Assembly (NCBI GenBank): GCA_016868855.1
Contig: VGFP01000003.1
Location: 62,001 to 126,000, forward strand
DNA from: Bacteroidota bacterium
Lineage (GTDB): Bacteria; Bacteroidota; Bacteroidia; Chitinophagales; Chitinophagaceae
Direction: 5' to 3'
Length of the DNA: 64,000 bases
The position numbers and the translations under genes were made by a program. The notes under the pieces are model-generated. The model worked only from the letters and a program-made list of their open reading frames with translations. It did not search any database and was not told the DNA's origin. Positions 4,254 through 63,754 of the stretch are shown here, piece after piece. Positions within the stretch are counted from its first letter, which is position 1. Each line of letters starts with the position of its first letter.

Positions 4254-6355
4254 CAGGGTATATCTATTTTAGATCCGAGATTTAAATACACTGTCTGACC
4301 TTTTTGAAGTGCCGATCCTGCAGGAATGGATTGTGAAACAACTTTCCCCTTTCCGTATGCAACAACTTGCACTTCTTGGTTCTCCAAAATTTCCAATGCA
4401 TCTTTCAATCCATAACCATTCAGATCTGGCATTGTGCCAGAAGAAATACGGTTTGATACGTATTGCATCCTCGCATCCTTTTTATTGGCATCCATTTTTT
4501 GTGTAATCAGCCTGTGATCAGATGGATTGCCTTTGGTCGATTTGCGCATTGTATCAATCAATACTGGATGCCTGTAGTACTTATATAAATCACGATCGAT
4601 GGTATACAGTTTATTGGCAATGGTTCTGAACACGGGACCTGCAATCTGTGCACCGTAATACCTCGGAGCAAATGGTTTGTTTTTGATAACTACAATGCAC
4701 GAATATTTTGGAGCATCTGCTGGAAAATATCCAGCGAAGGATGATTGATAAATATGCTCTGTGTACCCCTTGTTTCCGTTTGCCACCTGGGCGGTACCTG
4801 TTTTTCCAGCAATTGGAAAATTGGGATCAAATAAACTTTTAGCTGTCCCCGCAAGAACAACACCTTCTAAACATGTTTTCAATTGATCGAGTGTCTTCTG
4901 ACTGCATATGGAATCATTCAACACAACAGGTCCATATGATTTGATGCTCAATCCGTCTTTCATGATGGCATTGACCAAATACGGTTTCATCATTTTCCCT
5001 TTGTTGGCTACAGTGTTGTAAACCATCAGGGTCTGCAGTGGTGAAATGGCAATGGAGTAACCAAATCCCATCCAAGGAAGTGAAACATTGCTCCAATATT
5101 TACTACCCGGACGCGGAATGGATGGCTTGGATTCTCCTATGAGATCAATTCCAGTTGGCTTGTGCAATTGAAGCTTCTCAAGATTTGCAATGAATTTCGA
5201 TGGATTTCTTCCGTAATAATTAACCGCCAGTTTTGCCATTCCTACATTTGAGCTCAGTTCAAATGCCTGCTGATAGGTCACATCCGTATGATGATGACGT
5301 TCACTGTCCCAAACTGTCCTTCCGCTGTACTCCCATTTTCCCCCTTCGATGTTTACATGATTAGATAGGCTGATAAATTGATCATCCAGCGCAGAAAGCA
5401 TTGTGATCAATTTGAAGGTTGATCCCGGTTCAGATCTTGTAATTGCATAGTTCATATCCTCAGCATAACTGCCGTCTGGCTGTCTGCCAAGATTTGCAAT
5501 GGCTTTTATTTTACCAGTTTTCACCTCCATTACAATACAGGTGCCATTCGTACATTCATTCTCTGTCATCACTTTCAACAAGGCCTGTTCAGCGATATCC
5601 TGAATGTTTACATCAAGGGTTGTAACAATATCTTTTCCATTATCAGGTTCAATTTCAGAACCTTCAACCGGAACAAATGCACCGCCTGCAATTCTTCTGA
5701 CCAATCTCTTGCCTGTAACCCCTTTCAACAAGCTATCATATGTTTTTTCGAGTCCAACATTCTTGGTAACCATATTGCCTGTGGAATCTATGTACTCGCG
5801 GGAGAGTCCGATTGTTCTGTTTGCCAACAAACCAAACGGTGCCAATCTTTTCTCTTTTTCAATGAAAATGAAACCGTTTTTATTTTTATTTTTCTTGATA
5901 AAGCCTATACTTCTTAAAGACTGATACTGGTTGAAATCGATGTTCCTGGTCAGGAGATGATACCTGTCTTGCCTGTTGTAAACATCCATCAACTCACGCT
6001 TGTATTCGATCTCTGATTTTTCACCAACGATTGCAGAAAGATGATAGGCCAGACTGTCAAGGTGTTGTTTCAACCTTTCACCATTTTTTTCTTGGATGCC
6101 CTGTGCCCCGAAATCCAGATAAATATCAAAGAACGGTATTGAGCTGCTGAGCATTCGTCGATCTTCACTGTAAATGGTTCCTCGCTCTGCATCCATTTCT
6201 CTGTACTCTAAATGCAGACTATCGCTCAGCGAACGCCAATATGCACCTTCAGCATTTTGAATGTAAAATGCTTTTGCAAAAATGCATACCCCCAACACCA
6301 ACATCATGATGTATATGAGGTAACTGCGCCACAATATGTCTTTTTTTGTTTCCAA
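4253..6355 (-). CDS. ftsI: Penicillin-binding protein 3-type transpeptidase with PASTA domain
   Basis: Class B PBP that crosslinks septal peptidoglycan. The 700-residue protein has one N-terminal membrane anchor (residues about 10-30, YLIYIMMLVLGVCIF), a dimerisation/pedestal domain beginning DAERGTIYSEDRR, and a transpeptidase domain with all three catalytic motifs: STFK (nucleophile Ser312, Lys315), SSN at 368-370 and KTG at 518-520. The last 65 or so residues (MPDLNGYGLKDALEIL ... GSALQKGQTVYLNLG) form one PASTA domain. C-terminal PASTA on the division PBP occurs in Bacteroidota and Firmicutes. It follows ftsL by 12 nt and overlaps murE by one base. Confidence 0.95.
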   Translation of the reverse strand: METKKDILWRSYLIYIMMLVLGVCIFAKAFYIQNAEGAYWRSLSDSLHLEYREMDAERGTIYSEDRRMLSSSIPFFDIYLDFGAQGIQEKNGERLKQHLDSLAYHLSAIVGEKSEIEYKRELMDVYNRQDRYHLLTRNIDFNQYQSLRSIGFIKKNKNKNGFIFIEKEKRLAPFGLLANRTIGLSREYIDSTGNMVTKNVGLEKTYDSLLKGVTGKRLVRRIAGGAFVPVEGSEIEPDNGKDIVTTLDVNIQDIAEQALLKVMTENECTNGTCIVMEVKTGKIKAIANLGRQPDGSYAEDMNYAITRSEPGSTFKLITMLSALDDQFISLSNHVNIEGGKWEYSGRTVWDSERHHHTDVTYQQAFELSSNVGMAKLAVNYYGRNPSKFIANLEKLQLHKPTGIDLIGESKPSIPRPGSKYWSNVSLPWMGFGYSIAISPLQTLMVYNTVANKGKMMKPYLVNAIMKDGLSIKSYGPVVLNDSICSQKTLDQLKTCLEGVVLAGTAKSLFDPNFPIAGKTGTAQVANGNKGYTEHIYQSSFAGYFPADAPKYSCIVVIKNKPFAPRYYGAQIAGPVFRTIANKLYTIDRDLYKYYRHPVLIDTMRKSTKGNPSDHRLITQKMDANKKDARMQYVSNRISSGTMPDLNGYGLKDALEILENQEVQVVAYGKGKVVSQSIPAGSALQKGQTVYLNLGSKIDIP

Positions 6356-59050: not shown

Positions 59051-60841
59051 CTAATCCCCGTCTTTTTTCATTTGAGCTTCAATCATTCCCGCATAGGAAC
59101 CCTGCTTGGCCAGGAGGGTTTCATGTGTACCCTCTTCAATGAGATTTCCTCCCTCTAGAACAATGATTTTGTGTGCTTTACGAATGGTAGAAAGCCTGTG
59201 AGCAATGACGATGGAAGTCCTGCCCTTTGTCAATACATCAATGGCCTTTTGTATCAATACCTCCGTATTGGAATCCACCGAGGAAGTTGCCTCATCCAGT
59301 ATTAAAATAGCGGGATTAAAAAGCAGTGCCCTGAGGAAAGAGAGCAGCTGCTGTTGGCCGGTTGACAAGGTGGCTCCCCTTTCCTGAACATTGTAATCAT
59401 ATCCCCCGGGAAGACTCTCTATAAAATTGTGGATGCCGATCATCTTTGCTGCTTCCTCCACCCTTGATTGAGGAATGGAAGGATCCCTGAGAGTTAGGTT
59501 ATCCAGTATGGAGCCTGAAAAGAGAAAAACATCCTGCAAAACAACTGCAATTTGTGAGCGGAGCGATTGGAGTGTAAACTTTTCAATGGCATGTCCATCG
59601 ATCTTTATTTCTCCCTCTTGGTGTTGATACAAACGACTGATCAATTGAATGATGGTTGACTTCCCACTTCCTGTATGTCCAACGATGGCCAATGTTTCCC
59701 CTGCTTTTACCAAAAAATTTAGATCCTTCAACACAGGAGTCCCCTGCAGATAGGAGAATCCAACATGCTTGAACTCAATCTCCCCCTTGATCTGTTGATT
59801 GACTGCTCCGGGAGTATCCGCCAGGGTATCCTGATTGTCCAATACCACCATAACGCGCTCAGCAGCTACCATTCCCATTTGCAGGACGTTGAATTTATCC
59901 GCAATGACACGCAGTGGACGAAAAAGCATGTTCAGCAACAAAGCAAATGCAACAATATTTCCGCTGATGGCGGTGGCTTGTGTAGCATCCAAATGCAACG
60001 CATCCTTTGCAGCAAACCAAACAAGCAATCCCATGGAAACTGCCAGTATGATTTCTACAACTGGAAAAAAAACTGAATAGGCAAAAATGGCATCTATATT
60101 AGCATTTTTGTGTCGCTGATTGATGGCATTGAACTTATTCATCTCTCTTCTTTCTGCTGTAAAAGCCTGGATGATTTGCATACCCGAAATGTGCTCCTGC
60201 ACAAATGCATTGAGGGATGCAATGGCATTTCTGACTGCAACAAAAGATTTGTTGACACTTTCTTTGAACAAATAAGTTGCAACAATTAAAAAAGGAAAAG
60301 GAATCAGGCAGATCAATGTAAGTCGCCAATCGGTGTAAAACATTGCAGCCAAGATGGCAATGACAGAAAGAAGATCTGCAATAATTGGGATGAAACCCTC
60401 TGCAAAAATATCATTGATGGCTTCAATATCATTGATGGTTCTTGTTGTAAGTGTTCCAATAGGGGTTTTGTCAAACTGCCTTAGATTCAGATGAAGAATC
60501 TTTTGAAATACCTCGACACGGATGTCTTTTACAATCTTGTGGCCAAGCCATGAAGTGATGTAGGTAAATAAAAATTTAGTCGCTGTTTCAATAAAAAGAA
60601 AAATAATTTGAATGATGGTGATGTACAAAAGAAATTGCATCACCGATGCGACCTCTTCGCTCTGTGTATTTACTTTTTTCAATGTGAAGTTGATCAACAA
60701 GGGTCGCAATGGAGAAAAAACAGCAAGGAACAATGCCAACACGACCGACAAGTAGAATTTTCCTGCATACGGTTTGGCAAATACAAAAACACGCTTCAAC
60801 AATTGGGCATTGAAAATTTTCTTCTTCTCTTCCTTGCTCAT
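59051..60841 (-). CDS. ABC exporter, MsbA-like half-transporter
   Basis: 596 residues fusing a six-helix transmembrane domain (about 1-330) to a nucleotide-binding domain. Walker A GHTGSGKST at 388-396, signature LSTGQQQLLSFLRALL (a variant of LSGGQ with Thr), Walker B ILILDEATSSVD, and the H-loop VIAHRLSTIR. This is the type IV exporter fold of MsbA/LmrA relatives, probably working as a homodimer. Substrate is unknown; lipid or drug export is usual. The upstream gene for a secreted 700-residue protein ends 7 nt before the ATG, so the two are very likely co-transcribed. Confidence 0.92.
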   Translation of the reverse strand: MSKEEKKKIFNAQLLKRVFVFAKPYAGKFYLSVVLALFLAVFSPLRPLLINFTLKKVNTQSEEVASVMQFLLYITIIQIIFLFIETATKFLFTYITSWLGHKIVKDIRVEVFQKILHLNLRQFDKTPIGTLTTRTINDIEAINDIFAEGFIPIIADLLSVIAILAAMFYTDWRLTLICLIPFPFLIVATYLFKESVNKSFVAVRNAIASLNAFVQEHISGMQIIQAFTAERREMNKFNAINQRHKNANIDAIFAYSVFFPVVEIILAVSMGLLVWFAAKDALHLDATQATAISGNIVAFALLLNMLFRPLRVIADKFNVLQMGMVAAERVMVVLDNQDTLADTPGAVNQQIKGEIEFKHVGFSYLQGTPVLKDLNFLVKAGETLAIVGHTGSGKSTIIQLISRLYQHQEGEIKIDGHAIEKFTLQSLRSQIAVVLQDVFLFSGSILDNLTLRDPSIPQSRVEEAAKMIGIHNFIESLPGGYDYNVQERGATLSTGQQQLLSFLRALLFNPAILILDEATSSVDSNTEVLIQKAIDVLTKGRTSIVIAHRLSTIRKAHKIIVLEGGNLIEEGTHETLLAKQGSYAGMIEAQMKKDGD

Positions 60842-60848
60842 GGTGCAA

Positions 60849-62951
60849 TCATCTATTTTTTCCTCTTGCTTTTAAAAGCATCAATCCAAGATTTTTATGT
60901 GGGGCAACATAATTTTCAAAACGTTGCTTTGCATTGTTTATGCGCATTTGTTGTTGTAAATGCTTCCAGATTCCAACCCAATCCAAATTTTGGCCAGTCC
61001 GTATTGCCTCGTTGATCGTTCTTAATATGGGATCATTGACCGAAAGGCTTCCTACTTCTCTGGATGAAATAATTTGTGCATCCGGACAAACATCGAGCAC
61101 CTTGCTCAAATGCTGGTAACTGCCGCAGGACCCCAACAAGACAACTTTGGCACTGAGGGGTAACTGTGATATGGTTGATGGCAAGTGATAACTATGCCCT
61201 CGGTGAACTACAATACTAGGTTCCCATTGTTGCTCCTGCAAATACATTGACAAAGCTGTTTGTGCTTCGGTATCACGGTCTTCTCCATCCGCATGATCAA
61301 AAGGATTATTGGCAAATACAGAAATAGGTTTCCCTTGAAGCGACTTGATCTCAATCCATTTTTCAGCTCTGTATATTTTCCAGAATTTACTCTTTGTGTA
61401 ATATGTCAGAAAATTTTCAAATGACAATTTTCCGTCCTTATCGCCGTAAAAAAATAATTGCTCAACAATCCTGCCATTGGACAAAAGCTTGTCCCTCATC
61501 AAAAAATATGGAGGGTCTAACGCAAATTGTTTTGAAAAGGATTTCCCGCTGTCAGCGTCTGATTTCAGAAGCAATTGAATTGTCTCATAGAGGGCTACAC
61601 CTTCACTGTCTAGATTGAATTTCAGCGAAAGAATATTGGCCTCCACTTCCTTCAAAATGGCCGTTTTCAGAGAGGCATTGCTGATGCTTGAATATCCGTT
61701 CACAACATCCACAGCAGTTTCCAATGTCATATCTTTTTCTAAACCTGCAACAAAATCTTTCATCAGCCTTTTGGCTTGATCAGGACGCATAGCATTTACA
61801 AAATCATCCAACTTATTGTAGTCTGCTGCCATTTTGATGAATTTTCGAAACCGATCAAAATGAATGCTTATCAGCAATTCATCGGATTTGCGCTTGTTCA
61901 TCGAGCTCATCATTTTTTGGAAAATTCCGACAAAGGAGGATGTGTAGATGATGTCTTCTGATGCAACCATCAAATAATAAAGTTCCTCCGGTGTGAGTCC
62001 CTCAATAATTTTAAACCTCACTGCATCCGGCTCATCGTGCAATGCATTGATCTCATTGATGAAAATTTCTACAGCCTTCTTCTCCAAGAGTTTAAAAATT
62101 TCACCATATTCAATGGGAGGATTTCCCGACTGCAAATCTGATTGATAGTGTATTTGTGTGGCGACCAACAAGCTGAAAAATTTTTTCGCATCCTTTGAAA
62201 CCTGTTTCAAGCTGTCATAGCTGGTTTCTTTTGTTATGATGGCATGGATGAATGGATAGAGTAACCGACCAGAACTATCCGCGGAGAGCCTGCAGAGCAA
62301 TTGAACCATGGCATCATCCACCATGAGCATACTTTTTCTCAATGGGGATTCCATTGCCGAGGCATAATTATAAAAATCACTTGGATACTTTTGGGCCGCT
62401 GTAATCAATGCCTCAGCAACAAAAGATTCATTCAAATAATTTGAAATGGTTGGAAGAATCTGATCCGGACGTTCACGGATGAACTGATAATACATAAATA
62501 CTCTTGCCTGAGCCAATCCCGCATTTTCGTAAAAAGCAGTCCTCTCACCCAAGAGGGAGCGATTGATTGCCAGGGAATTGTTTTTGATTGCTTCAGCAAT
62601 TGATTGTTCCTTGATATCCGCCTCCAATAGAATCCTATAGGCATCCAGCAATTGGTGCGAATCTTTACTGGGCACCCTTCCATTCTGCAAATCATCCAAC
62701 AAAGATTTGATACCTGACAAATACTTGATTTTCAATCGATGGTCAAACTGGTCCTCTTTTTCCAACCATTGCTGCAAAGAATCGATCCTTGTATTGAAGT
62801 TTTTTTCTTGTCCTGTTTGTCCCAAATCGATATCCTCGTGCAATTTGACCCTCCTGATATCTTTCGTAATGAAAGCAGTGTCGCCGCTATTTTGTGCCAA
62901 TGACAAAAATGGGGAAAGCAAGAAAATCAAGCATAAGCGAACCAGCTGCAT
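60849..62951 (-). CDS. Large secreted protein with possible clan CD peptidase-like C-terminus
   Basis: 700 residues; I do not recognise a named family for the whole chain. Residues 1-19 are a signal peptide (LVRLCLIFLLSPFLSLAQ). Residues about 20-520 look mostly alpha-helical with no clear motifs. The C-terminal part has two hydrophobic strands each followed by a possible catalytic residue: SIVVHRGHSYHL with His583 and His586, and AKVVLLGSCGSYQHL with Cys609. A beta-strand-His...beta-strand-Cys order is the hallmark of clan CD peptidases (caspase, gingipain, separase, CHAT). The ensuing DAQIISSREVG and LDWVGIWKHL are unassigned. A -7 element 5 nt upstream supports the ATG at 62951. Followed by an ABC exporter after 7 nt. 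Confidence 0.85.
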   Translation of the reverse strand: MQLVRLCLIFLLSPFLSLAQNSGDTAFITKDIRRVKLHEDIDLGQTGQEKNFNTRIDSLQQWLEKEDQFDHRLKIKYLSGIKSLLDDLQNGRVPSKDSHQLLDAYRILLEADIKEQSIAEAIKNNSLAINRSLLGERTAFYENAGLAQARVFMYYQFIRERPDQILPTISNYLNESFVAEALITAAQKYPSDFYNYASAMESPLRKSMLMVDDAMVQLLCRLSADSSGRLLYPFIHAIITKETSYDSLKQVSKDAKKFFSLLVATQIHYQSDLQSGNPPIEYGEIFKLLEKKAVEIFINEINALHDEPDAVRFKIIEGLTPEELYYLMVASEDIIYTSSFVGIFQKMMSSMNKRKSDELLISIHFDRFRKFIKMAADYNKLDDFVNAMRPDQAKRLMKDFVAGLEKDMTLETAVDVVNGYSSISNASLKTAILKEVEANILSLKFNLDSEGVALYETIQLLLKSDADSGKSFSKQFALDPPYFLMRDKLLSNGRIVEQLFFYGDKDGKLSFENFLTYYTKSKFWKIYRAEKWIEIKSLQGKPISVFANNPFDHADGEDRDTEAQTALSMYLQEQQWEPSIVVHRGHSYHLPSTISQLPLSAKVVLLGSCGSYQHLSKVLDVCPDAQIISSREVGSLSVNDPILRTINEAIRTGQNLDWVGIWKHLQQQMRINNAKQRFENYVAPHKNLGLMLLKARGKNR

Positions 62952-63073: not shown

Positions 63074-63754
63074 ATGGCCCCTGAAATCAAAAAAGTTCTC
63101 ATAGCTGACGATGAGCCAGATATTTTGGAAATCATCAGTTACAATTTACAGTTGCATGGCTATACGGTTTTTACAGCCAAAGACGGTGAACATGCTATCA
63201 GACTAGCCCAAGAAGTACATCCTGATCTGATCATTTTGGACATCATGATGCCAAAGAAAAATGGCATAGAAGTCTGCAAACAACTTCGAACCCAACCTGC
63301 ATTTCAAGATACCATCATCGTATTTTTAACTGCTTTGAATGATGAACTCTCTCATGTCAGGGGTTTGGAATTTGGAGCCGATGATTTCATCGCCAAGCCG
63401 ATATCACCCAAAGTGATGGTTTCAAAAGTGAATTCTTTTTTCCGTCGCATCAACAAACAAGAAGCCTCCAAGGCTATTGAGATGGGTAATTTGAGGATCG
63501 AGCCAGAGGAATATGTGGTTTATTACAAAGATGAACCCATCAATTTAGCCAAGAAAGAATTCGAATTGCTGAGTTACTTGGCATCCAAACCTGGACGCGT
63601 TTTTCTTCGCAATGAAATCTTGAATAAAATCTGGGGCAATGATGTGATTGTAGGAGACAGGACCATTGATGTGCACATCAGAAAAATAAGACAAAAGCTT
63701 GGTATCGACTGCATTACAACCGTCAAGGGTGTAGGTTATAAGTTTGAGCTTTAA
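63074..63754 (+). CDS. OmpR/PhoB-family response regulator
   Basis: 226 residues. Receiver domain: ADDEPDILEI acidic pocket, phosphorylated Asp56 in LIILDIMMPKKNG, and the conserved Lys in DFIAKPISP. Output domain: winged helix with INLAKKEFELLSYLASKPGRVF, GDRTIDVHIRKIRQKL and TTVKGVGYKFEL. PhoB/PhoP-like by these motifs. A histidine kinase gene starts 44 nt downstream on the same strand, forming a standard pair. The phosphate link is inference from similarity only. Confidence 0.93.
   Translation: MAPEIKKVLIADDEPDILEIISYNLQLHGYTVFTAKDGEHAIRLAQEVHPDLIILDIMMPKKNGIEVCKQLRTQPAFQDTIIVFLTALNDELSHVRGLEFGADDFIAKPISPKVMVSKVNSFFRRINKQEASKAIEMGNLRIEPEEYVVYYKDEPINLAKKEFELLSYLASKPGRVFLRNEILNKIWGNDVIVGDRTIDVHIRKIRQKLGIDCITTVKGVGYKFEL

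Follow-up and report, generated by a model that had tools for sequence, protein, structure and literature searches.

The window analysed here, a 64,000-nucleotide stretch of a Bacteroidota bacterium (contig VGFP01000003.1, positions 62,001 to 126,000), encodes a 700-residue protein of an unnamed family, here called FAM. With a probability of roughly 0.55, FAM is an exported clan-CD-like cysteine hydrolase with a helical domain that probably acts in an envelope-response module. The most likely reading is an exported, clan-CD-like enzyme of the cell envelope, either a cysteine peptidase or a transpeptidase; within the taxonomic family of the source genome it is perhaps tied to a two-component system encoded next to it. 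A peptidase-like active site appears to be the best reading of the conserved residues, because a histidine and a cysteine are unchanged across two phyla, stand in the clan CD order, each follow a predicted strand and are accompanied by export signals and a helical N-terminus.

The gene starts with ATG and lies on the minus strand; the plus-strand frame over the same interval holds 26 stops. The initial annotation of the window had reported this open reading frame (ORF) without naming a strand, and the frame proved to be real. The signal peptide, the long helical region and the C-terminal His/Cys block that it described were borne out by eye, in the consensus and in the structural model, and H583, H586 and C609 are found where it had placed them, with spacings of 26 (H583-C609) and 23 residues (H586-C609). 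The N-terminus, MQLVRLCLIFLLSPFLSLAQ, resembles a signal peptide by eye. The gene and its parts are as follows.

60849 to 62951, minus strand: 700-residue exported protein of the unnamed family FAM, with only chance-level matches in Pfam, NCBIfam, PADLOC, PHROGs and PDB.
62892 to 62951, minus strand: signal peptide, residues 1-20, ending in SLAQ, assigned by eye and from the consensus of 52 members.
61497 to 62891, minus strand: residues 21-485, nearly all helical according to the AlphaFold model and the alignments.
Within 61497 to 62891, minus strand: block conserved in the alignments of the helical part, with N302, H305, R312-F313, Y325, T337-S338 and Y455.
60852 to 61496, minus strand: C-terminal alpha/beta domain (residues 486-700), in which the His/Cys block lies, from alignments A2 and A7 and the model.
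61431 to 61442, minus strand: D504-x-D506-G507, following predicted strand 1, from the alignments.
61191 to 61205, minus strand: H583-R584-G585-H586-S587, at the end of a predicted strand and directly beyond it, from the alignments.
61122 to 61133, minus strand: G607-S608-C609-G610, following the next predicted strand, from the alignments.

The majority consensus of the 52 members carries AQ at the cleavage place of the window protein. A crude hydropathy rule detected a hydrophobic start in 79 of 94 FAM copies and AQ at residues 15-46 in 52 of them, a tally that includes some copies cut off where the locus ends and some with a start placed too far upstream.

D504, D506, N548, H583, R584, G585, S587, G607, C609 and G610 were invariant in 61 aligned members, as were G634, N639, W658, W662, Y681, P684 and N687; H586 was kept in 60 of the 61. 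Among the 94 copies, H583 and C609 were present in all, H586, D504 and N548 in 93 each, D506 in 92 and G507 in 91. The widest set comprised 114 distinct domains, two of which were dropped as they did not span the motif. The remaining 112 all retained H583 and C609 and read HRGHS (108), HRGLS (3) or HRGYS (1). HRGHS and GSCGG also occurred at all ten loci from the taxonomic families f120 and f125, which brings the distinct domains to 122 of 122 for H583 and C609 and to 118 of 122 for H586. A nine-sequence alignment spanning two phyla kept D504, D506, G507, H583-S587, G607, C609 and G610, together with G634, N639, W658, W662, Y681 and P684. The initial annotation had proposed such an alignment of homologues as a check on invariance, and free variation of these residues was not seen. 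Conservation over distinct domains places the His/Cys block beyond chance, and most FAM members are unlikely to be degenerate pseudo-enzymes.

An AlphaFold model of the domain (residues 486-700) was built from four sequences. It places the histidine and the cysteine at strand ends, with His ahead of Cys as in clan CD. The predicted strand assignment of this low-confidence model is compatible with a dyad on the neighbouring parallel strands 3 and 4 of a sheet ordered 2-1-3-4. A structure search against viral models returned two clan CD entries among the matches listed (best 50). In profile alignments with hhalign, the FAM cysteine was superposed on a cysteine of CHAT and of C14; these alignments are non-significant and the coincidence is suggestive only. 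Clan CD membership of FAM is likely.

Known families did not account for the protein. The best Pfam match of the window protein (hmmscan, up to E 10) was AAA_32 with E 0.12 and 12.8 bits against a cut-off of 21, and the best NCBIfam match was a FliG model with E 0.052 and 12.7 bits against a cut-off of 550. The sequence search of PDB gave zero chains up to E 10, PADLOC gave nothing up to E 1 and the best PHROGs match had E 0.22. FAM profiles run against PDB sequences reached E 0.034 and 0.64, and single FAM members run against the libraries reached values down to E 0.0026 with scattered families; both were taken as chance. No paper treating FAM was found by title or abstract opening in a literature search that covered few subscription journals.

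Of the 298 genomes sampled from the order, 128 contained a FAM relative. Within the taxonomic family of the source genome (f1) they occurred in 83 of 85, a count which assumes that 150 unlisted match-less genomes belong, as do the rows listed ahead of them, to families other than f1. Of 395 genomes sampled across the phylum, 14 carried FAM, all f1. Restriction of FAM to its order was overturned by a class sample of 395 genomes searched with the C-terminal profile A7, which yielded 22 genomes with FAM (9 of f1, 10 of f120 and 3 of f125). One f125 copy (G1021:C6:81697-82293) contains an internal TAA and is possibly a pseudogene or an assembly error. In the phylum-wide domain search, three weak candidates from beyond the order were rejected as chance: a 46-aa frame with a stop in G398 (E 0.002), a 90-aa frame in G344 (E 0.004) and 25 positions of a 480-aa frame in G489 (E 0.04). 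Among 72,556 plasmid records, four Azospirillum plasmids carried a FAM relative annotated as 'hypothetical protein'. Three of these relatives (L221-L223) start with a signal-like sequence; the annotated start of the fourth (L220) seems too short, and a signal-like stretch lies upstream in frame. Three of the four plasmids share a neighbourhood with DUF1194 and ethanolamine ammonia-lyase genes. Scans of viral contigs with two FAM alignments confirmed no relative, and phage records contained none.

Outside f1, the order often carries FAM genes in tandem. At 14 of 17 loci from other taxonomic families (L034, L035, L036, L037, L042, L051-L053 and L151-L156) a long copy (1001-1155 aa) is followed in transcription order by a short one (696-813 aa). 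The N-terminal helical profile matched twice in 14 of 14 long copies, so their extra part is a second helical domain. Genome G062 has two FAM copies on opposite strands, so the tandem arrangement is not universal. The long and short pairs may form a complex.

The genes next to FAM point to a possible signalling context in f1. At the window locus they are as follows.

59051 to 60841, minus strand: MsbA-like ATP-binding cassette (ABC) exporter, 7 nt downstream of the FAM stop, with ABC_membrane and ABC_tran domains.
63074 to 63754, plus strand: OmpR/PhoB-type response regulator, divergent neighbour, with Response_reg and Trans_reg_C domains.
4800 to 5840 of locus L159: histidine kinase beside the regulator, across and past the window end, with HisKA and HATPase_c domains.

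The distance of 7 nt to the exporter, claimed in the initial annotation, is correct; the exporter scored 449.7 bits against TIGR02203, under the cut-off of 602. Neighbours were compared over 43 f1 loci, some of them second copies within a genome, at identity thresholds of 45% (regulator) and 38% (kinase). A divergent upstream response regulator was present at 32 of the 43 loci, accompanied by the kinase in 31, and is about 60-93% identical across f1 loci. The exporter lay directly downstream at 21 (L120 and L132 included) and one gene away at two more. The regulator is therefore the more constant partner of FAM in f1, and the exporter a frequent but not a constant one. In the two-copy genomes G107 and G293, regulator and kinase accompany one copy and the exporter the other; in other two-copy genomes, G162 and G215 for instance, the second copy stands beside neither. 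By hydropathy, a hydrophobic N-terminal hairpin precedes the kinase core in all 33 linked kinases of sufficient length, as two segments in 29 and as a merged stretch in four. All 33 fit the intramembrane-sensing pattern of paired membrane helices with scarcely any outside loop. From this linkage we infer a role of FAM in an envelope response. Among the f120 and f125 loci, L251, L252 and L257 have by eye a small SpoU-type RNA methyltransferase-like gene upstream of FAM, beyond which L257 has a MutS-like gene.

A number of results weigh against an exported clan-CD-like enzyme of an envelope module. The mean predicted local distance difference test (pLDDT) score of the domain model was 66.5 with its four input sequences. 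Foldseek found no match in PDB and BFVD at E <= 0.001. Among the matches listed by VIA-align against PDB (best 50), small GTPases predominated and clan CD was not represented. The structure prediction suggested by the initial annotation thus supported the His/Cys placement and order, but its best matches were small GTPases. The profile comparison with CHAT, C14 and C25 gave probabilities of at most 3.2%, no better than the controls, which consisted of reversed columns (up to 3.0%) and unrelated families. Of the clan CD-like peptidase that had been put forward, the invariant His and Cys, their order and their predicted strand ends hold, but no significant fold or profile match was obtained. At the site itself, H583 is followed by R and H586 by S, and a literal H-G signature is missing. 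Four of the 112 domains that retain C609 have L or Y in place of H586, namely those of L042 (the L235 protein), L237, L238 and L239, in which H583 is retained as well. The four have long frames (1003-1025 and 935 aa); genus g68 supplies three of them and f10 the fourth. Since H586 is lost in four copies and H583 and C609 never, either H583, which precedes the Cys by the 26 residues known from separase, would be the base or those copies would be non-catalytic partners. G585 stands directly before H586 but two residues past H583, and the G585-H586 pair fits the x-G-H-[G/S] pattern of the order's C14 protein L160 better than H583 does.

The gene linkage also has its limits. Of the 17 loci in the order's other families, only 5 have the regulator or kinase nearby (L036, L052, L152, L153 and L156), none has the exporter, and regulator, kinase and exporter adjoin FAM at none of the ten f120/f125 loci; four genes off, L250 has a 40% regulator relative and L249 a 25% ABC relative. 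The proposed pairing with the exporter was found at about half of the f1 loci, but neither at the 17 remaining loci of the order nor at the ten outside it. Furthermore, ATP synthase genes follow FAM at many f1 loci, so synteny may account for part of the linkage.

Taking the points on both sides together, an exported clan-CD-like cysteine enzyme could work as follows. The protein would be exported to the periplasm or surface, where C609 after strand 4 would serve as nucleophile and H586 (or H583) after strand 3 as base. The DxDG motif after strand 1 may line the substrate pocket and favour cleavage after Arg or Lys, or may bind a metal. Clan CD enzymes select the P1 residue from the region after strand 1 (PMC4357240). 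The P1-selecting residues are Asp163 in gingipain and Asp365 in MALT1, in helix 1, and a glutamate in separase (PMC4626109). As DxDG sits in this P1-selecting region, a basic P1 residue is a first guess. The helical domain might recognise the substrate or keep the enzyme inactive. In f1, the enzyme would probably belong to a module for envelope response, together with a two-component system in which the kinase lacks an outside sensor domain and in many cases also with an exporter of the MsbA type.

More tentative, and on balance doubtful, is the wider proposal of a new exported clan CD peptidase family of separase-like architecture, a helical solenoid followed by a C-terminal protease, which would occur in a number of families of the Bacteroidota and on plasmids of Azospirillum. 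In f1 it would act as the outside sensor or effector of the kinase without an outside domain, and elsewhere the short copy and the long copy with the doubled helical domain would work as a pair. Present in 83 of 85 f1 genomes and covered by no family model, FAM would become a candidate protease of the envelope whose active site can be tested. Should the fold be confirmed, FAM would add an exported, separase-shaped branch of clan CD beside the CHAT/caspase-like and gingipain/PorU branches and a possible input for kinases lacking an outside sensor domain.

The same fold and site might, though this is unlikely, belong to a transpeptidase/sortase-like or other acyl-transfer enzyme that attaches or matures envelope proteins. 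Clan CD includes transferases such as PorU, GPI8 and legumain, and PorU (C25) of this phylum is itself a transpeptidase/sortase-like or acyl-transfer enzyme. These precedents agree with the His/Cys conservation and the export signal of FAM, but no sorting-system gene was recognised among the compared neighbours, most of which are unidentified, and sequence alone cannot tell transfer from hydrolysis.

Somewhat less probable is a non-enzymatic receptor or scaffold for the kinase, in which His and Cys would sense metals or redox state. The frequent regulator and kinase (32 and 31 of 43 f1 loci), the kinases without an outside domain and the loss of H586 in some long paralogues would suit such a role; H583, C609 and the flanking G residues, however, were found in every copy examined, also where regulator and kinase are absent.

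We give slightly less credit still to another Rossmann-like hydrolase or phosphotransferase, in which DxDG would be catalytic in a HAD- or metal-like manner and His and Cys accessory. The conservation of D504, D506 and G507 comes close to that of the His/Cys pair, and DxDG after strand 1 resembles HAD motif I. Against this, D504 varies in one and D506 in two of the 94 copies, H583 and C609 in none, and HAD families were absent from the scans of the window protein and from the best 25 of 50 families for the 52 members. An EF-hand reading of DxDG was rejected, as EF-hand_8 matched 2 of 52 members with a best E of 0.24 and positions 508-509 vary. A small GTPase-like domain, to which most structural matches pointed, is very improbable since the P-loop GxxxxGK[ST] is absent after strand 1, where nearly all copies read [GDN]-D-x-D-G and K508 occurs in 21 of 94.

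Among known systems, the exported clan-CD-like enzyme proposed here resembles in layout separase (C50), which likewise combines a long helical N-terminal part with a C-terminal His/Cys domain. Human separase has a spacing of 26 between H2003 and C2029 and a Gly before the His, G2002-H2003 (PMC12609080). The separase-like spacing of about 26 noted in the initial annotation is thus matched by H583-C609, and a Gly also precedes the second FAM histidine. FAM differs in being bacterial and exported and in having HRGHS instead of G-H-G, a comparison made by published residues. Peptidase_C50 (PF03568) did not match the window protein (hmmscan, up to E 10) and was not among the best 25 of 50 families for 52 members. 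With CHAT (PF12770), FAM shares the His...Cys alpha/beta domain, and hhalign set Cys on Cys over 16-17 columns with a probability of about 3%, the same as in reversed controls. CHAT gave no Pfam match to the window protein and was likewise not among the best 25 of 50 families for the 52 members; FAM differs from it by its signal peptide, motif and strand insertions. The membership in separase or CHAT considered at the outset consequently gained no profile match. Peptidase_C14 (PF00656) has, like FAM, x-G-H-[G/S] after strand 3 (AGHG in L160) and strand-x-C at strand 4; its hhalign probabilities of 0.7-1.2% were non-significant and Pfam gave no match to the window protein. Gingipain and PorU (C25, PF01364), which like FAM come from this phylum, are exported enzymes belonging to clan CD. 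C25 was present in 60 of 60 searched genomes of the order; it aligned with FAM at 0.2% in hhalign and did not match the window protein.

The gene arrangement in f1 resembles the BceRS-BceAB modules, in which an intramembrane-sensing kinase, a regulator and an ABC transporter are encoded together and which are described as Firmicutes-specific (PMC3023708). The putative FAM module likewise combines genes for an intramembrane-sensing-type kinase, a regulator and an ABC transporter, but it differs in having an MsbA-type exporter and an additional exported His/Cys protein.
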